DNA from: a virus
Virus record (IMG/VR): IMGVR_UViG_3300027852_000197
Location: 1 to 20,474 of that record
Reading direction: 5' to 3' (one strand)
DNA length: 20,474 nt
Shown here: positions 3,117 through 16,499 of the stretch, piece after piece
Numbering within the stretch: position 1 is the first letter of the stretch
Layout: the number at the start of each line of letters is the position of its first letter
Position numbers and translations under genes: made by a program
Notes under the pieces: model-generated
Seen by the model: the letters and a program-made list of their open reading frames with translations, nothing else
Told to the model about the DNA's origin: nothing
The model's database searches: none

Positions 3117-5278
3117 GCATCATCTCCATCAATGGGTGAATTGTTCAGTGCGGCGAGTTGCGCCAGTAGCTTGGCACGGGGGCTGCTGCGGGGCATTACT
3201 TCGGATTCTGTGACGCCTTTTGGTGTGGCAATCTTAGTCGGACCCCAAAGGTCTTCGAGCGTTGCTTGTTCGGCTTCGGGGTTGACGCCACGCTCTTCGA
3301 TCAGGTCGTGCCATTGTTCCGGCTTCTTGGTGTCCCAACGTAAATGGCAGGCAAGCGCCAGATTATAGATCAGAATATCGTGGTGCTCGTTCGGACGGTT
3401 CTTGATCTTCTGCCAGTAATAGTCAATGCGGCCGCCCCGACGGGCATGAGGCACAAGGACTTCGGCGGTGACTTGTTCGAAGAATTCCTCGTCGGCAATT
3501 TTCGGGAAATGGACCACGCCCTTTGGCCATTCGCCTTCGTCGTTCGGTCCGTCCTGCCATTGGCGCAGCATGCCGTACATGCGGGTTTTTAGGCCGTAGG
3601 TACCCACATCGTATTTAGTGGTTCGGCCAACAACAGTGCCGCCGATTTTGTGCTGGATTGATTTTGGTGAGGACAGCGGCGGTGCGGACGGTTTGTCACG
3701 GCCGCGGCCATCCAGATTGTAAACATTAGCAAGGCCTCTGGTGGCTTGGTAGACGATCGGTGAGCGGTAGCCACTATCCACGCCCCAAAGGTCGACCGGG
3801 AATGTCAGGCCGTTCTGATAAGGATAGGCGGCGGTTTGTGTGAACTCTATGAATTCGCGCCATACTTCCGGTTGATCGGTTGCGCCTTTGAAGATGCCTT
3901 TGTCGATAAGCCAGCCGTGGAGGTTTGGCCCCCAGGCATAGACGCCCCATTCGATGCGGTCTTTTTGTACATCCGCTGCGCCTGTCGTGAAATAGGCACC
4001 GAGCGGAATTTCGCAGTCAGGATAGGATTCGGTGCGCTTGGCGAGATCCACATGATCCGGTGCTTCGCCGCTGTCGTCCCAAGGTTCGGCGAGGACTTGT
4101 TGCCAGAACACTTTCATGGCCTCGCTGTCGCCTTCGGCTTCTTCGTATTCTAGCAGAATGCCGTCCCAGTCAGAGGTTTTGGCATAGGCTTTCCACAAAT
4201 GATATCCTTTGGTGCGGATGCCTTCGCAATCGCGAGCGGCCCAGGTCTCTATGTTTTCGGGGGATATGACTTCGGGTGGTTGTGGGTTTGTCGCGTTTTT
4301 GGATTTAAAGCACGGCACCCAGATGGCGGCGTCGACCATTGCGTCTTTTTCGCGTTCGGCAATATCTGTACCGCAGGACGGGCAGGAAAACACCGGCACC
4401 CGCATTTCATTGTGATTTGTGCTCCAGTGGAGATTATCGAGCTCTAAGGTGTGGAAGTCGCCGCAATGGGGACATGGCACATACCATTTGCGTTGATCGG
4501 ATTGATCAAAGGCCAGGCTGATCCGGCATGAGTTTTTAATCTGGCAGGTCGACGTCAACAGATATTTTGAATTCCTGTATACCTCCATGCGTTTAATTGC
4601 CTGCTGGACGGGGTCGCCGCGGTGTCCGGTTTCAGCCGGATATTCGCTGACTTCGTCGCCCCAATATCGCGCTCGGGTCACGCCTTGCAGGGCGGATGAG
4701 GATCCGGCAGAGGCCAGAATGCAACCACCACCAGGATAGGCCTTGATGAAGGTTGTTGAGCCTTTGCCGGATTTGTCGCTCTCGCCCTCGATGCATTTCT
4801 TGAGGACGGGCGTACTGTCGATTGTCGGCTGGATTTTGTAACGGTTGAACTTGCCCAATTCGACAATGCCCGATTGGGTGATCATCATCGGTAGTTTCTC
4901 GATATGGCCAACATAGCCAAACCAGTTGACGCCAACTTCGCTTTTGCTGGTTTGTGCGGACCATTTCAGCACAACGCCCATGCACGGGTCATCTGCGCTC
5001 AGTGAGCGGAGTGGCTCTATGACTTGTGGGCTGCGGATGTGATCCCATTTGCCTGGATATGGCGAGCCGCTGTCAGCTGAGACATATCTGTATTTTTGCG
5101 TCCAGTCGGCAGGGTCAATGTTCTCTGGCGGCTCTAAGGCTGTGGCGAGAGAGGCGAGTGCAATCGTGGCAGGGACGGCGACGGCCGTGAAGCTCGGGCG
5201 CTTGGCCCAATCTTTGAAACCGACCTTCAGGACGGCGCGGCCCTGGGCGAGGTAGGCTGTTAGGTCTGCGCGGGTCAT
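3113..5278 (-). CDS. terL: Terminase large subunit, lambda gpA family
   Basis: The ATP-driven packaging motor and cos-cleaving nuclease, 721 residues against 641 for lambda gpA. The ATPase domain has a deviant Walker A at about 107-114 (SAQTSKSE, Lys112) and a Walker B at 205-209 (YWGDE). Two CxxC pairs (269/272 and 299/302) form the zinc-ribbon-like insert common in this family. The nuclease half shows Asp436 in GAADVQ, Asp501 in GVDSGY and the late NEHHD motif. The first ~50 residues are an extension before the conserved EPP...W..Y.Y entry to the domain, so a later start cannot be excluded. The start overlaps the small-subunit stop by four bases (ATGA). This family usually belongs to cos-type packaging. 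Confidence 0.96.
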   Translation of the reverse strand: MTRADLTAYLAQGRAVLKVGFKDWAKRPSFTAVAVPATIALASLATALEPPENIDPADWTQKYRYVSADSGSPYPGKWDHIRSPQVIEPLRSLSADDPCMGVVLKWSAQTSKSEVGVNWFGYVGHIEKLPMMITQSGIVELGKFNRYKIQPTIDSTPVLKKCIEGESDKSGKGSTTFIKAYPGGGCILASAGSSSALQGVTRARYWGDEVSEYPAETGHRGDPVQQAIKRMEVYRNSKYLLTSTCQIKNSCRISLAFDQSDQRKWYVPCPHCGDFHTLELDNLHWSTNHNEMRVPVFSCPSCGTDIAEREKDAMVDAAIWVPCFKSKNATNPQPPEVISPENIETWAARDCEGIRTKGYHLWKAYAKTSDWDGILLEYEEAEGDSEAMKVFWQQVLAEPWDDSGEAPDHVDLAKRTESYPDCEIPLGAYFTTGAADVQKDRIEWGVYAWGPNLHGWLIDKGIFKGATDQPEVWREFIEFTQTAAYPYQNGLTFPVDLWGVDSGYRSPIVYQATRGLANVYNLDGRGRDKPSAPPLSSPKSIQHKIGGTVVGRTTKYDVGTYGLKTRMYGMLRQWQDGPNDEGEWPKGVVHFPKIADEEFFEQVTAEVLVPHARRGGRIDYYWQKIKNRPNEHHDILIYNLALACHLRWDTKKPEQWHDLIEERGVNPEAEQATLEDLWGPTKIATPKGVTESEVMPRSSPRAKLLAQLAALNNSPIDGDDA

Positions 5279-11057: not shown

Positions 11058-11606
11058 TTACCACCCCCCCGGTGCATGGGTTACCATCGGCGCATCATAC
11101 TCTGAGTGGATAGGCCGGCGCTTGCGGGCTTCGGTACCTTGCTGGCAATGCGCGGGACAATAGGACGCCTTTTTACCGTTCGGTAAAATTTTCTGCGCAT
11201 CGCCGCAGAACCTGGTCTCGGCTTCGGTTCCGGATACCGGCCAGCGGCAGTGGCCACCTTCCAAGTCCATAAATGAAATCCCGACCCCGTCGTTAACTGG
11301 ATGTGCCTGCAGGCATGGTTTGGGAGCAGGACGAGCCTTGGGCGTTTGCCGCCTGACCGATTGTACTTTGCGGCGTTTCCGCTGCAAGCACAGAGCCCTC
11401 TCCCTGTTCACCGCCGCTTGTTTTTTCCTGTTCGACGGCCCGTTTCTCGATCGTCTTACACCGGCGCGGTGTGCCGCCCCCATTACCGCATTGCGCGTGA
11501 CGCCGTATTCTCTGGCCAAAGGTAAAGCATCCTCACCGGCCGCATAGCGCCGGACGGCTTCGCGGCTCTCTTCTTTTGTCCACCCTCTTCGGTTTGCATC
11601 AGCCAA
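11058..11606 (-). CDS. gcrA: GcrA-family cell-cycle regulator homologue
   Basis: GcrA is the alphaproteobacterial factor that binds RNA polymerase sigma70 and activates promoters carrying methylated GANTC sites. This 182-residue homologue has the N-terminal helix-turn-helix (about 9-50: GWTKEESREAVRRYAAGED, then YGVTRNAVMGAAHRAGV, compare GVTRNAVIGKVHRLGL). A basic linker follows. The C-terminal domain has the diagnostic MDLEGGHCRWPV (113-124), RFCG (132-135) and SYCPAH (148-153) motifs, giving Cys120, Cys134, Cys150 and His153. It starts at TTG 11606 with GGGAG eight bases upstream. No in-frame ATG offers an alternative. It lies two bases after the upstream stop in the replication operon. 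I infer redirection of host transcription or timing of replication with the host cycle. Confidence 0.88.
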   Translation of the reverse strand: MADANRRGWTKEESREAVRRYAAGEDALPLAREYGVTRNAVMGAAHRAGVRRSRNGPSNRKKQAAVNRERALCLQRKRRKVQSVRRQTPKARPAPKPCLQAHPVNDGVGISFMDLEGGHCRWPVSGTEAETRFCGDAQKILPNGKKASYCPAHCQQGTEARKRRPIHSEYDAPMVTHAPGGW

Positions 11607-12111: not shown

Positions 12112-13505
12112 GCTACTCTCTCCGTTTGAAATTCTTTGGGGATGCCAATATTGCTGGCGTTGTCGTAAGCGATATTTGCCAAGGCCTTTGCCTTCGCCCG
12201 TTCACGTAAAATATCGTTGAAATCTTGGCCTGCCCCTGGCCATGAATTCATGGTCTGCCCGCCGACGAAATGTTTAAACTTGGCCGCGGCCAAAGCATAA
12301 GCCCGCTCTGCCCTCTCGCTTCCCGTCAAACCGCGCTTGGGATCGTCCTTCAAATCGTCTTCACAAAGATTGCGAACATTTCCGCTCCACCCGCTCGGCG
12401 GCAAAAAGCCTGGACGGTTGATATCCGGAACAGGGGTGCCAACCGGCTTGCCCAAATGGATCCGCTTTGGTCCTTTGCGCGTGATGCTGAATTTAGGTTT
12501 GCCCCATTTGTCCTGCGCTTGCGCTCCGGTTAGATTGCCAAGCGACAGAGCCGCCCACCACATGCCGCCAGACTGGCCGCCCGCTTTGCCGTTTTCTACA
12601 TAAAGCTGATAGGCCGATAATTCCGACTCGACCCCCTCGCCCACAGACAGGATATTATTGCCAGCAGCAAATGGTGAACCGCCTGGTGTAATCAGCCGCG
12701 CCGATCCACCAAAATACGCGCCGAGGATTTGTTTCGCCAACCGCTTCTTGCCTTTTGGCCCATTTCGATTTCGGGGCCGCGAGACATCAATCTTGTCGCG
12801 GCCATCAGATCGTAGGAATGTAATGTGCAGTCCGGTGAATGCCCCTGCCCGCCCTGTGACCTCGGTCACCATTGCTGGAAAACTCTCTCCGGACGGATTG
12901 CGTACATTCGGGTGAAATCGTATCGCGGCCGGAATGCCGCCAATCAAATCCAGGTCAATATGCCGACCCCAAACCGTGCACTTTCCACCAGCCAAATAAT
13001 CAACACCGCCGCGCAGATAGGTTTCGACCAATGTCCCGCCTGCAGGTACTGATTGCTGCCAAAGCGCGAAGGCATGATCCATCATGCGTTTCTGGTAACT
13101 GGCTTGGCTCTCTGAACGGCGCGTATTCTCGCGCTTGCGCTGCTCTACTTGTTTGATGGACAAAGGTCCTTGGGACAGGCCTGCCAATTTGCGCCCTTCG
13201 GACAACGCCTGACCGAAAGTCATATTTTGCGAGAACATCAGCCAGGCAAATATATCGCCGTGGGATCCACTCGAGAAACAATGGTAAAACTGCTTTTCAT
13301 CGTTCACGGTAAAGGACGGCGTCTTCTCATTTGTAAATGGGGACAAGGCCTGAAACTCACGGCCGTTCCGTTTGAGCTTTACGCCGTGGCGGCCGATAAC
13401 TTCAGATAATTTAACCCGCGCCTTAATCTCGTCCTTCAGCGCTTCAAAATCCCCATCTGACATACGGGCCGACATTCTGCCGGATGTGTTATCCGGCCCG
13501 CTCAT
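12108..13505 (-). CDS. DnaG-type phage primase with degenerate zinc-ribbon and Toprim domain
   Basis: 465 residues, expected to make RNA primers for phage replication. The N-terminal domain (about 18-105) aligns with the CHC2 zinc ribbon of DnaG. The usual CPFH is SPFT (55-58) and the usual HCFGCG is HCFSSG (75-80), so only Cys76 of the four ligands remains while the fold residues EKTPSFTV and GDIFAWL are kept. The C-terminal half is a Toprim domain with the metal-binding Glu290 in SVGEGVES, an acidic CEDDLKDD (381-388) and GAGQDFND (424-431). The protein is shorter than host DnaG and lacks a clear helicase-binding tail. The ATG overlaps the CII-like gene stop (ATGA). A GCCGGAT/ATCCGGC hairpin lies within the first codons. 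Confidence 0.85.
   Translation of the reverse strand: MSGPDNTSGRMSARMSDGDFEALKDEIKARVKLSEVIGRHGVKLKRNGREFQALSPFTNEKTPSFTVNDEKQFYHCFSSGSHGDIFAWLMFSQNMTFGQALSEGRKLAGLSQGPLSIKQVEQRKRENTRRSESQASYQKRMMDHAFALWQQSVPAGGTLVETYLRGGVDYLAGGKCTVWGRHIDLDLIGGIPAAIRFHPNVRNPSGESFPAMVTEVTGRAGAFTGLHITFLRSDGRDKIDVSRPRNRNGPKGKKRLAKQILGAYFGGSARLITPGGSPFAAGNNILSVGEGVESELSAYQLYVENGKAGGQSGGMWWAALSLGNLTGAQAQDKWGKPKFSITRKGPKRIHLGKPVGTPVPDINRPGFLPPSGWSGNVRNLCEDDLKDDPKRGLTGSERAERAYALAAAKFKHFVGGQTMNSWPGAGQDFNDILRERAKAKALANIAYDNASNIGIPKEFQTERVA
13479..13497. repeat. Hairpin at the 5' end of the primase gene
   Basis: GCCGGAT (13479-13485) and ATCCGGC (13491-13497) pair perfectly around a five-base loop, eight bases inside the primase start. 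In mRNA it could modulate translation started by coupling, or favour the downstream Met11/Met15 starts. Confidence 0.5.
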
Positions 13506-13984
13506 TTGGCATCCACAAACAATGTTTGTTCCAGTGATGCCTTCAGGCGTTTGGCTTTTTTGATCACTTTGGCCAAATCTTTGACCAGGTCTTTGTCTTC
13601 AATCTCTTGCGCTGTGATTTTACCGTCGGCCGCGACCACTGAAAGATCAGCGATCAATTCGGCCAGTCCGGTAATTTGCGAGGCGGCGGCCTTAGCAGGA
13701 TTTTTGATAGTGGAAGGCTTGGCCACAACATCCATATCCAAATGGTACGCCATAACTTCCAGTAGGCTAAAATCGCCACTGGCTTTCATGAAATCCACAG
13801 CCACATCAACAGTTATAAATCTATCAGCGCAATCCGCGCTTTGTGATCCAAACCGTTGCAAAGTGCTGTCAGATTGAATCCGGGACAATGACGCCAAGAC
13901 CTTTAAAGGGCCACAACTATCCATGACCCTTTTGGTCGCTGTTTTCAGCCCGCGGTAAACCGAGCCTGCGAATTGCCGGCTCAT
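13502..13984 (-). CDS. CII-like phage regulatory protein
   Basis: 160 residues. The N-terminal half resembles the phage regulatory CII (CP76-type) family of proteobacterial phages: RGLKTATKRVMDSCGPLKVLASLSRI (residues 12-36, split here only by domain), then a Ser-rich turn and FITVDVAVDFMKASGDFSLLEVMAYHL. This is a helix-turn-helix-like fold followed by a dimer helix. The C-terminal half has a helical VVAADGKITAQEIED segment with an EF-hand or TerB-like look, then a Lys-rich tail. It is the second gene of the leftward operon, where lambda keeps cII. The start overlaps the Cro-like stop (ATGA). The name rests on pattern and position. Confidence 0.6.
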   Translation of the reverse strand: MSRQFAGSVYRGLKTATKRVMDSCGPLKVLASLSRIQSDSTLQRFGSQSADCADRFITVDVAVDFMKASGDFSLLEVMAYHLDMDVVAKPSTIKNPAKAAASQITGLAELIADLSVVAADGKITAQEIEDKDLVKDLAKVIKKAKRLKASLEQTLFVDAK

Positions 13985-14256
13985 TCTGCAGCCCCTGATG
14001 CAAGCTCGCAGTCTTCGGGGAAATTTTCCGAATGAATCCCCGTTACACGAGACTGGGCCGCTGATAAGTTTGTTTCATGATGATCAAGATACTTCTCAAT
14101 CTTTTCCAAGGTGCTCAAATTGACACCCTGGTCTCGCTCGATAAACTGCACGGTGCGGTGATCGATGCCAATATTCAGGCAAAACGCACGACGGGAAATG
14201 GCATGCTTTTCCAAGTGTGTTGTGATGCGCAGAAGTATGTTTTTTCGTATTTCCAT
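13981..14256 (-). CDS. Cro-like helix-turn-helix regulator
   Basis: A 91-residue protein whose residues about 17-60 form an XRE-type helix-turn-helix (ISRRAFCLNIGIDHRTVQFIERDQ, with RTVQFIERD as recognition helix). This is followed by LSTLEKIEKYL, a typical last helix. It is the first gene of the leftward operon, divergent from the CI-like repressor, the position of cro. The ATG at 14256 lies six bases from the best -10 match, and no Shine-Dalgarno precedes it, so the mRNA may be leaderless. It probably competes for the GGCGATTTATCGCC operators or their neighbours. Confidence 0.78.
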   Translation of the reverse strand: MEIRKNILLRITTHLEKHAISRRAFCLNIGIDHRTVQFIERDQGVNLSTLEKIEKYLDHHETNLSAAQSRVTGIHSENFPEDCELASGAAE

Positions 14257-14312
14257 GCCCGACCCATAACGGGCGATTTATCGCCTGTCAACTGTTAAGG
14301 CGATATTTCCCC
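14256..14312 (-). promoter_or_regulatory. Leftward early promoter with paired repressor operators
   Basis: On the minus strand TTGACA (14291-14286) is followed at 17 bases by TATGGG (14268-14263), a weak -10. A perfect operator GGCGATTTATCGCC (14272-14285) fills the spacer. A degenerate copy (14299-14312, 11 of 14 matches) lies upstream of the -35. Operator centres are 27 bases apart. Repressor bound here should block RNA polymerase directly. Confidence 0.75.
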
Positions 14313-14348
14313 CGTGCAAACTAAAAACGACAGGAATAAACAAACAAA

Positions 14349-15206
14349 ATGAGCAAGAAAATTGACAAATCCCCTATCCTGCGCACCCGCCTGCGCCGCG
14401 TTCTCCAACAAAAGGGTGTGGCCGCGAGCCACGTTTCTCGGTTTGCCGGCTTCAATGAGACTGTCATCAAAAACATTTTTCAAGCAAAATCTAAAAACCC
14501 CCGCGCAGAAACCATTGACAGGTTGGAGCGAACACTTGGTTTGCCACTTGGATTCCTACTCGCCACCAGAGAAGACACTCAGTCCCTGGCCGATAGTTCA
14601 GCGACCGCCGAGCGGCTCAGGTTCGAGGCCCGCGAACGCGGCGAGACCTTTGACCACGAAGCCGACCTGCAGGACGAAGCGTTTTGGGGCGAGATCCACC
14701 ACGAAGAGCTCGAGCCCTATGTCAATAGTGTGGACGAGCTCAACTTTATTCAATCCGCACTCGCCACTCCAGAGCTATTTGACCCGGACGGCCTGCCGGT
14801 TGATATCAGCCAGGCCCCTGCGCAAACACCGGTTGTTGGTGAAATTGGGGCCGGTGGCCATATCAATCCAATTGACGACCATGCCAAAGGCGGCGGGCTC
14901 GATTATGTAGATACACCCGTTGGTGCAAAGCCCAATACTGTGGGCGCAATCGTCCGTGGGACCAGCTTTTATCCACTATTACCGGACGGTTCTCTGGTGT
15001 TCTGGTCTCGCCTGGAAAGCAGCATCAACGATTGGCTTTATAAAATGGTGGTTTGCCATTTGGAAGACGGCCGGAAAATGGTGAAGGTTTTAACGCCCGG
15101 CACCGCGCAAGGTAGATACACCTTGACCAGCCCGTCAGCTCCGCCGATTGAAAATGTCGTACTGGCCAATGTCAGTCCTATTGATCTTATGCAGCCAAAA
15201 AACTAA
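14349..15206 (+). CDS. CI/LexA-type phage repressor (HTH plus S24 peptidase)
   Basis: Maintains lysogeny by binding operators at the two divergent early promoters. It has 285 residues. The N-terminal helix-turn-helix spans about 9-70 (LRTRLRRVLQQKGV, then FNETVIKNIFQAKSKNPR). A charged linker follows (80-155). The C-terminal S24 domain has the Ala168-Gly169 cleavage site in GEIGAGGH, nucleophile Ser206 in RGTSFYPLLPDG and general base Lys246 in KMVKVL. The Ser-Lys spacing of 40 is close to LexA and lambda CI. It should therefore self-cleave on RecA filaments and be SOS-inducible. The ATG at 14349 has only a distant AGGA (about 13 bases), so expression may be low. It is divergent from the Cro-like gene and convergent with the small membrane protein gene. 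Confidence 0.92.
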   Translation: MSKKIDKSPILRTRLRRVLQQKGVAASHVSRFAGFNETVIKNIFQAKSKNPRAETIDRLERTLGLPLGFLLATREDTQSLADSSATAERLRFEARERGETFDHEADLQDEAFWGEIHHEELEPYVNSVDELNFIQSALATPELFDPDGLPVDISQAPAQTPVVGEIGAGGHINPIDDHAKGGGLDYVDTPVGAKPNTVGAIVRGTSFYPLLPDGSLVFWSRLESSINDWLYKMVVCHLEDGRKMVKVLTPGTAQGRYTLTSPSAPPIENVVLANVSPIDLMQPKN

Positions 15207-15213
15207 CGCAGCT

Positions 15214-15540
15214 TCAGTCAACTAATACGGCGCAAGAACTGTCCCAAGCATCCGAGCAAGCTCTTTTCACTTTTATCACCTCGATGGATCCGTCCTGTTC
15301 CTTGATAGGACATTGGTATATTTTGCTGATATCGGAATAAGAAGCACCCAGGGTTACTTTAGCACCTTGGTGATATCCAAGCCTTTGAGATTGCGCCAAC
15401 CCGCTCGCACAAAACATTGCAGCATCTTTATCCGGACTGTCTGGCGATAAAGTACCAATGGCGAGAGCTGCTAATAATATGACGACACCGGCAATCAATC
15501 CAGCACCTATGCACCCTACCCCTGATTCTTGCTTAGCCAT
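15214..15540 (-). CDS. Small membrane-anchored Cys-containing protein, candidate moron
   Basis: 108 residues. Residues about 8-30 (VGCIGAGLIAGVVILLAALA) form one transmembrane anchor. The remaining ~75 residues hold four cysteines (44, 77, 95, 103), compatible with two disulfides in the periplasm. The gene is on the opposite strand to the repressor and the rightward operon, separated from each, with its own AGGTGG three to four bases before the ATG. It ends seven bases from the repressor stop. Expression separate from the lytic operons suggests a lysogenic gene such as superinfection exclusion. No family recognised. Confidence 0.68.
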   Translation of the reverse strand: MAKQESGVGCIGAGLIAGVVILLAALAIGTLSPDSPDKDAAMFCASGLAQSQRLGYHQGAKVTLGASYSDISKIYQCPIKEQDGSIEVIKVKRACSDAWDSSCAVLVD

Positions 15541-15610
15541 AAACCACCTATTTGCATCAACTTAAGCATATTCTTTGCCCCCTTACAATTCTGCAGTTCA
15601 TACAATATTG

Positions 15611-15660
15611 GGCGATTTATCGCCTTTTAGCTTGACAAGGCGATTTATCGCCCTTAAGGG
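15611..15660 (+). promoter_or_regulatory. Rightward early promoter with paired repressor operators
   Basis: TTGACA (15632-15637) is followed at 17 bases by TAAGGG (15655-15660). Perfect GGCGATTTATCGCC operators lie upstream of the -35 (15611-15624) and in the spacer (15639-15652), centres 28 bases apart. The layout copies the leftward promoter. AGGAGG (15672-15677) then serves the first gene. Confidence 0.82.
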
Positions 15661-15681
15661 TTTCCAAAAATAGGAGGCCTT

Positions 15682-15903
15682 ATGTCAAACCCAAAACCAA
15701 AAACCAGAGCAGGCCAAACAGCTTATGATTGCGCCGTTGCCTTTATGAGCCTTGAGCTCGCCAAGCGCGAACTTGACGAAATATCCAAAGCACCAATCAT
15801 CGAGCAGAGCCGCCTTGATGCACTTCAACTCAACCTTGGCCGCGCCAATGCACACTGCGCCAGACTAGCAAACGGCTTCGATGCAGCAGGCGGCAACGGA
15901 TAA
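15682..15903 (+). CDS. Hypothetical protein, first gene of rightward operon (73 residues)
   Basis: Starts at ATG 15682 behind a consensus AGGAGG four bases upstream. It is probably all helical: a Lys/Pro-rich start (SNPKPKTRAG), then AYDCAVAFMSLELAKRELDE and a second helix DALQLNLGRANAHCARLANG. This gives a two-helix hairpin that may dimerise. Being first after a strong, repressed promoter, it should be among the earliest and most abundant products after induction. The TAATG junction couples it to the next gene. No family recognised. Confidence 0.75.
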   Translation: MSNPKPKTRAGQTAYDCAVAFMSLELAKRELDEISKAPIIEQSRLDALQLNLGRANAHCARLANGFDAAGGNG

Positions 15904-16499
15904 TGAAATGCCCTGCAGAACATTCAGATTTACCAGATGGTGTAACAGCCACAATCAGCATTGAACGAGATGGTGAAACTATAACTGCAGACTTCGACGA
16001 CAAACCCGCATCCGAAGCATTAATTGCCGAAGCCATCACCGGCATGGCCTCTGAAGCTATGGACAAAGACAGCGCCGGAATGGGTAAATCCACGCGCGAC
16101 GTTCTAAAAGGCTTCATTGCGAGGGTCGAGTTAGTCGAGGTTGAGCTTGCTGATCTACGTTATGACCGCACACAAATATATGCAGAAGCCAAAGCATTCG
16201 GTTTCGATGTGCCAATCGTAAAACGCATCATCAAACTCCGCAAAATGGAAGAGGCCGTGCGCGAAGAACGTGACGCCTTAACCGATCTTTATATGGACGC
16301 CCTCAACGGCAAAGATAAAGATGGCAAGACCATAGACATTCCCTTGGCGGCCGCACCAATCAAATCTCGTGAACGCGCCAAACACCCTGCCCGCATCAAA
16401 AAAGATGCGACCCGCACTGCACAGTTGGCCGATGAAAAACTGGCCCGCGACACTGCCACCAAACAAGCAGAAGAGATGTCCGGAGGTGGTCAATGGTAA
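15903..16499 (+). CDS. DUF2312/GapR-like DNA-binding protein
   Basis: GapR is an alphaproteobacterial chromosome-structuring protein that clamps overtwisted DNA and aids topoisomerases ahead of replication forks. Residues about 62-135 match its DUF2312 domain: TRDVLKGFIARVELVEVEL, DRTQIYAEAKAFGFDVPIVK, then IIKLRKMEEAVREE and LTDLYMDAL. The YAEAK.xGFD and IIxLRK signatures are diagnostic. Host GapR is about 90 residues. This one adds an N-terminal domain (1-60) with a beta-like segment (TATISIERDGETITADFDD) and a basic C-terminal tail (150-198, KSRERAKHPARIKKDATR). It may help phage replication or reorganise the host chromosome. ATG 15903 overlaps the upstream stop by one base. Confidence 0.85.
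   Translation: MKCPAEHSDLPDGVTATISIERDGETITADFDDKPASEALIAEAITGMASEAMDKDSAGMGKSTRDVLKGFIARVELVEVELADLRYDRTQIYAEAKAFGFDVPIVKRIIKLRKMEEAVREERDALTDLYMDALNGKDKDGKTIDIPLAAAPIKSRERAKHPARIKKDATRTAQLADEKLARDTATKQAEEMSGGGQW

Follow-up and report, generated by a model that had tools for sequence, protein, structure and literature searches.

Paired operators at both early promoters of a predicted lambda-type immunity region in an uncultivated virus

We analysed an uncultivated virus, the complete IMG/VR record of which (20,474 bases) is referred to below as the window, and found a 14-base palindrome, GGCGATTTATCGCC, placed twice at each of two TTGACA promoters that flank a repressor gene. The twin operator layout is real and exceeds chance expectation. 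Very probably, a temperate lambda-type phage with an alphaproteobacterial host has its immunity region here, with predicted operators paired at both early promoters. The same layout, with other operator sequences, recurs in approximately 17 related phages and prophages. Most deserving of a test is an asymmetry between the two promoters, namely, a cro mRNA that is predicted to be leaderless, opposite an operon with an ordinary leader.

Predicted operators, promoters and genes of the window

There are exactly three perfect copies of GGCGATTTATCGCC in the whole 20.5-kb record, together with one 11/14 copy, and the coordinates given in an earlier sequence-only reading (14272, 15611 and 15639 for the exact copies, 14299 for the imperfect one) were all reproduced. 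Among near-palindromic 14-mers of the window, this is the sole word with three exact copies. When up to three mismatches were allowed on both strands, 9 matches to the 14-mer were found, compared to 2.65 +/- 1.76 in shuffled sequences; none of 100 dinucleotide shuffles reached 9. With the flanks included, the operator sites form the 16-mer GGGCGATWWATCGCCT and are oriented head to head inside each pair. The only other weak match, at 15443 (11/14), is located inside an ORF and is probably a chance occurrence. A search with the 14-mer in the window and the whole record detected no third operator copy in either region, i.e., there are two sites per promoter.

The two pairs are built in the same way (Table 1). 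The left pair, on the minus strand, consists of operator B, 7 nt, TTGACA, 0 nt, operator A and TATGGG, whereas the right pair, on the plus strand, consists of operator C, 7 nt, TTGACA, 1 nt, operator D and TAAGGG. The distance between the -35 and -10 boxes is 17 nt on each side, and the centres of the paired operators are 27 and 28 bp apart; this order and these distances had been described from the letters of the DNA, and the description is correct. The extra base on the right falls between TTGACA and operator D, so that the operator is shifted by 1 nt while the distance between the -35 and -10 boxes is unchanged, as expected if the promoter and the operators are superimposed. Both -10 hexamers are weak, at 3/6 and 2/6, and a simple sigma-70 promoter scan of the window listed neither the leftward nor the rightward early promoter. 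The best sigma-70-like match in the region is TTGACA-16-TAAACT (10/12, positions 14120-14147, plus strand), antisense inside the cro-like gene and directed towards cI. It is possibly a PRE-like establishment promoter, but such matches are expected by chance. A weak cI promoter, with a -35 box almost abutting operator B, is plausible with low confidence because operator B is 36 nt from the cI ATG, compared to 33 nt in phage 16-3.

Table 1. Features of the predicted immunity region (window coordinates)
Feature	Coordinates	Strand	Remarks
CII-like regulator	13502..13984	-	Pfam Phage_CP76 9e-7; phrog_101 CII-like 5.7e-6
Cro-like HTH protein, 91 aa	13981..14256	-	first leftward gene, opposite cI; Pfam HTH_3 1.6e-4, just below cut-off
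-10-like TATGGG	14263..14268	-	17-nt spacing; ends 6 nt before cro ATG
Operator A	14272..14285	-	exact 14-mer; fills -35/-10 spacer of leftward (cro-side) promoter
-35 TTGACA, predicted leftward promoter (lambda PR equivalent)	14286..14291	-	related loci have it at the same place with respect to two operators
Operator B	14299..14312	-	11/14 copy; 7 nt upstream of leftward -35, cI side
Inferred weak cI promoter	14314..14342	+	GTGCAA (14314-14319), 17 nt, TAAACA (14337-14342), 6 nt, ATG
CI-type repressor, 285 aa	14349..15206	+	N-terminal HTH, long linker, C-terminal S24 domain
Small ORF, 108 aa	15214..15540	-	hydrophobic N-terminus; between cI and rightward promoter; no family found
Operator C	15611..15624	+	exact 14-mer; 7 nt upstream of rightward -35
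-35 TTGACA, predicted rightward early promoter (lambda PL equivalent)	15632..15637	+	same offset from operators as on the left
Operator D	15639..15652	+	exact 14-mer; within -35/-10 spacer of rightward promoter
-10-like TAAGGG	15655..15660	+	17-nt spacing
Shine-Dalgarno AGGAGG, first rightward gene	15672..15677	+	ordinary leader, unlike the predicted cro mRNA
First rightward-operon gene, 73 aa	15682..15903	+	ORF; lambda PL-side position
Second rightward-operon gene, 198 aa (longer protein)	15903..16499	+	GapR-like DNA-binding domain, Pfam PF10073 1.1e-20; NCBIfam below cut-off

The gene order is lambda-like: the cro-like gene, the CII-like gene and a primase gene (DnaG-type zinc ribbon primase, 2.2e-23) are read leftward, whereas cI and a second early operon are read rightward; the left promoter would therefore be the counterpart of PR and the right promoter that of PL. 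The matches of the repressor to Pfam HTH_26 and Peptidase_S24 are weak, under the curated cut-offs, and its match to phrog_4 has a value of 9e-9; in an alignment of five relatives, the S24 cleavage dipeptide A168-G169 and the catalytic residues S206 and K246 are invariant. The region contains a repressor gene with an HTH and an S24 self-cleavage domain, a cro-like gene read in the opposite direction with cII-like and replication genes behind it, and operators common to both early promoters flanking the repressor gene, as in lambda-type switches. A small leftward ORF after cI is also present in Mesorhizobium phage L120 and in phage L121. An Rfam search detected no RNA family.

Terminase, portal and protease genes are read leftward in the window, which also has a gene for a GcrA-like protein (11058-11606, minus strand; Pfam PF07750, 2.3e-13); GcrA is a cell-cycle sigma-70 cofactor. 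The CcrM methylation site GANTC is strongly depleted in the window (positions 1-20474), with 14 sites found compared to approximately 79 expected from base composition. Taken jointly, the GcrA-like protein, the GapR-like domain and the depletion of GANTC all point to an alphaproteobacterial host. A gene annotated as GcrA is also located close to the switch of a Mesorhizobium phage relative.

According to the proposed mechanism, the CI-type repressor would bind the four 14-bp palindromes and block RNA polymerase at both early promoters, which would silence the cro-cII-replication operon on the left and the second early operon on the right. DNA damage would be expected to inactivate the repressor by LexA-type self-cleavage. 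The weaker site B, beside cI, would probably also tune cI. That one repressor shuts both operons, as the sequence-only reading had suggested, is the natural reading of an HTH and S24 gene located between the two promoters; the paired cooperative binding proposed along with it fared differently (see below).

Recurrence of the layout in related loci

Relatives were collected via the S24 domain of the repressor; these were nine phage or viral loci and 27 genome loci, the latter drawn around an alphaproteobacterial-type centre. Among these relatives, the HTH domains and the operators differ while the layout at the cro promoter is constant, and the differing HTH domains and operators are, judging by the sequences, typical immunity-module swapping. 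There are 14 loci with a cro promoter of the TTGAC type (TTGCGC in Komagataeibacter phiKX1), and in these repeated or palindromic words flank the box on both sides. Twelve of the 14 have the operator words again at another TTGAC promoter on the far side of cI, 17 to 1,667 nt past the cI stop codon; such a second promoter was not found in the remaining two, L004 and L182. With the -35 box masked, word scores within the same locus were 7-27, compared to at most 6 in cross-locus controls, in which the words of one phage were looked for in another. The exception among the controls is the pair L175/L179, near relatives with a common operator. These are also the only loci that share operators in the comparison of operators with CI and Cro, and both proteins are nearly related there. 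The same operator was found at both promoters in Paracoccus phage Pyei1 (GGGGGAATTCCCC), phage yong2 (ACCCGNNNCGGGT) and phiKX1 (GTGTGNAAGTTTKCAC).

A second set was fetched after the rule had been fixed; it included 40 more places from another order, of which 38 were analysed. In this set, the distance from TTGAC to the cro-like start is 34-38 nt in six cases and 40 nt in two others, and operators bracket the box in all eight. Six loci were scored. A right-hand twin carrying the same palindrome was recognized in five of them (L192, L193, L198, L213 and L222), where L198 and L213 had a word score of only 5 and were accepted on reading the palindromes; in the sixth, L204, the right-hand twin is doubtful. 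The claim that two early promoters are under one common operator is well supported, as the arrangement recurs in approximately 17 loci and is annotated in phage 16-3. In this phage group, a TTGAC box between two palindrome copies, present to the left and to the right of a repressor gene of the S24 type, would allow the operator, the two early promoters and the specificity of the repressor to be predicted from the DNA sequence only. One sighting would become a general, checkable rule for the group.

The comparison gives no support to paired cooperative binding. The spacing within pairs is not constant and varies from approximately 17 to 33 bp: the centre spacings are 27/28 in the window, 26/29 in Pyei1, 33/19 in yong2 and approximately 24 in L175 and L179, where the values for the window and its relatives were read by eye. 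An automatic measurement of palindrome centres scores upstream sites barely above random, and no single spacing from it was relied upon. What is conserved instead is the position of the sites, with one operator at the -35 box, either overlapping it or immediately upstream, and one in the spacer between the -35 and -10 boxes. There is no fixed helical phase within the pairs; cooperativity is possible, but the spacing lends it no support. The two operator regions are 1.34 kb apart, and looping between them is likewise not supported.

Close relatives of the repressor, Cro, the primase and the GapR-like protein were looked for in viral contigs, with one match, L004, which shares the S24 domain only. 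A scan of genome contigs with the full-length repressor gave no match, and HTH-only searches of phages and plasmids gave no useful relative. The collections searched yielded nothing related that shares the HTH or the operator of the window. What would link this repressor to the 14-mer is its position. The operator-pair pattern was found in one viral contig only (L005, actinophage-like), in which the proteins are unrelated; at 4221-4260 of this contig, TTAACA is flanked by two copies of GGCGATAGATCGCC at a spacing of 26 bp, with an identical half-site and apparently the same layout. In genome contigs, the pattern was found in 113 stretches, mostly REP-like, and a phage switch was present in none of those seen. 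The GGCGATNNATCGCC pairs that follow GTTTGTAGTA or similar words (L006-L118) abound between genes in Chloroflexi, Parabeggiatoa and Verrucomicrobia as REP-like repeats; the pattern matches also include a repeat close to the beginning of contig L055, which is labelled SPHING1.

Alternative readings and the predicted leaderless cro

The abundance of such repeats has to be weighed, because the palindromes of the window could be mobile hairpin repeats of the REP/BIME kind and not operators. The window copies can be folded into hairpins, and the 113 bacterial-genome stretches consist of GGCGATNNATCGCC pairs 8-20 bp apart, which belong to the same word family; most of them look like intergenic repeats of the REP kind, typically placed after GTAGTA. 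However, this guide is absent beside the window copies, and the combination by which REP/BIME elements are recognized, a guide together with many dispersed copies, is not found in the record, which has three perfect copies only and none dispersed. Furthermore, the window copies are placed exactly around the TTGACA boxes upstream of two early operons, and unrelated palindromes occupy the same positions in related phages; we therefore regard a repeat origin as very improbable. It is also improbable that the main user of the sites is the Cro-like protein or another phage regulator and that CI acts elsewhere. The Cro-like protein is encoded by the first gene under operator A, and Cro-type proteins act at the lambda immunity operators and at OR3 of PY54 (PMC4488713), but the same layout in 16-3 is bound by the C repressor, and two full operators at both early promoters are what a maintenance repressor needs. 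The recognition regions of CI and Cro differ; the Cro-like protein probably uses the same sites as CI and would compete for them. We thus retain the predicted operators of a CI-type repressor as the preferred reading.

In the first 14 loci, the cro ATG lies 34-38 nt from the first T of the -35 box; in the eight added loci, the value is 36, 37 or 40 nt. A distance of 34-40 nt, observed in 22 loci, places the AUG at or near the expected +1, and a leaderless mRNA is therefore predicted. In an unbiased histogram, 11 of 26 distances of the first set are at 34-38 nt, compared to 0.86 expected, and in the second set the corresponding numbers are 6 of 45 and 1.5. At the right promoters, the first plausible start is in most cases at a distance of 44-99 nt, and approximately two thirds of the loci have a Shine-Dalgarno-like motif; L183, at 38 nt, is a possible exception. 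The promoters would mirror each other only in transcription, and this is possibly a new point. Leaderless repressor mRNAs have been described for lambda cI and paaR2 (PMC8630535); a conserved leaderless cro in this phage group was not found in the literature searched, the coverage of which was incomplete.

An ordinary leader on the cro mRNA would require that the -10 box was mis-assigned or that translation begins at an internal downstream codon. The weakness of the -10 boxes is in favour of this explanation, as is the first rightward gene of 16-3, which starts 48 nt from TTGACG. It is nevertheless rather unlikely: the ATG of the divergent ORF is found within the narrow range above more often than expected in the histograms, whereas cro of lambda, HK97 and P22 starts farther away (53, 53 and 58 nt). 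The HTH domains begin near the predicted cro start, leaving little room for an internal one, and the cro and cI mRNAs of PY54 are leaderless by RACE (PMC4488713). On balance, we slightly favour the view that in S24-type temperate phages, mostly alphaproteobacterial, cro is translated leaderless from its AUG while the opposite operon is leadered with a Shine-Dalgarno sequence, this geometry being conserved while operators and HTH domains swap freely. If this is true, the lysis-lysogeny decision could respond to the translation state of the host. The predicted contrast between a leaderless cro and a leadered right operon bears on the mode of translation initiation in phage switches outside enterobacteria.

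Comparison with known switches

The window resembles OL/OR of lambda in that the cro-cII-replication genes lie opposite cI, the operators overlap the early promoters and the repressor is of the S24 type; the centre spacing of OR2 and OR1 in lambda, 24 bp, is similar to that of the window pairs. A difference is the number of sites, which is three per region in lambda, graded in affinity (a trait absent from 16-3), and two per promoter in the window. In addition, cro of lambda is leadered (53 nt from TTGACT to ATG), whereas that of the window is predicted to be leaderless. The immB region of PY54, N15 and phiKO2 is likewise a CI/Cro switch. Unlike the window, these are enterobacterial telomere phages for which no two-plus-two mirrored layout is described (PMC4488713), and PY54 has a single OR3, bound by Cro (PMC4488713).

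The closest resemblance in layout is to Rhizobium phage 16-3, the operators of which were taken from its GenBank annotation (DQ500118). In this record, C-repressor operators are annotated around the -35 box of PL (OL1/OL2) and around that of PR (OR1/OR2), and according to a published vector paper, no regulator other than the C repressor is known to act on both PL and PR (PMC3694467). In phage 16-3, as in the window, the repressor gene lies between two divergent early promoters with two operators apiece, and both repressors combine an HTH with an S24 domain. At PL of 16-3, one operator overlaps the edge of the -35 box, the next begins right after TTGACT and the -10 box follows at a spacing of 17; at both promoters of the window, one operator is similarly at or upstream of the -35 box and one is in the spacer. 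The within-pair spacings annotated in 16-3 are 17 and 26; OR1 abuts the -35 box of Pc, from which the repressor gene c is itself transcribed, and there are 6 nt between the -10 box of Pc and the start of c. The operators themselves are unlike: the motif is ACAA-N4/6-TTGT in 16-3 and GGCGAT-ATCGCC in the window. The two repressors are weakly similar (33% over 60 aa, with an E value of 8e-4 from a single comparison), and neither a homologous repressor nor the same operator motif is shared. Judging by these sequences, the window has the layout of 16-3 in common, not the family of sites. Our analysis places the switch in a kind that is already known, with a clear precedent in 16-3, of which the window is a further case.
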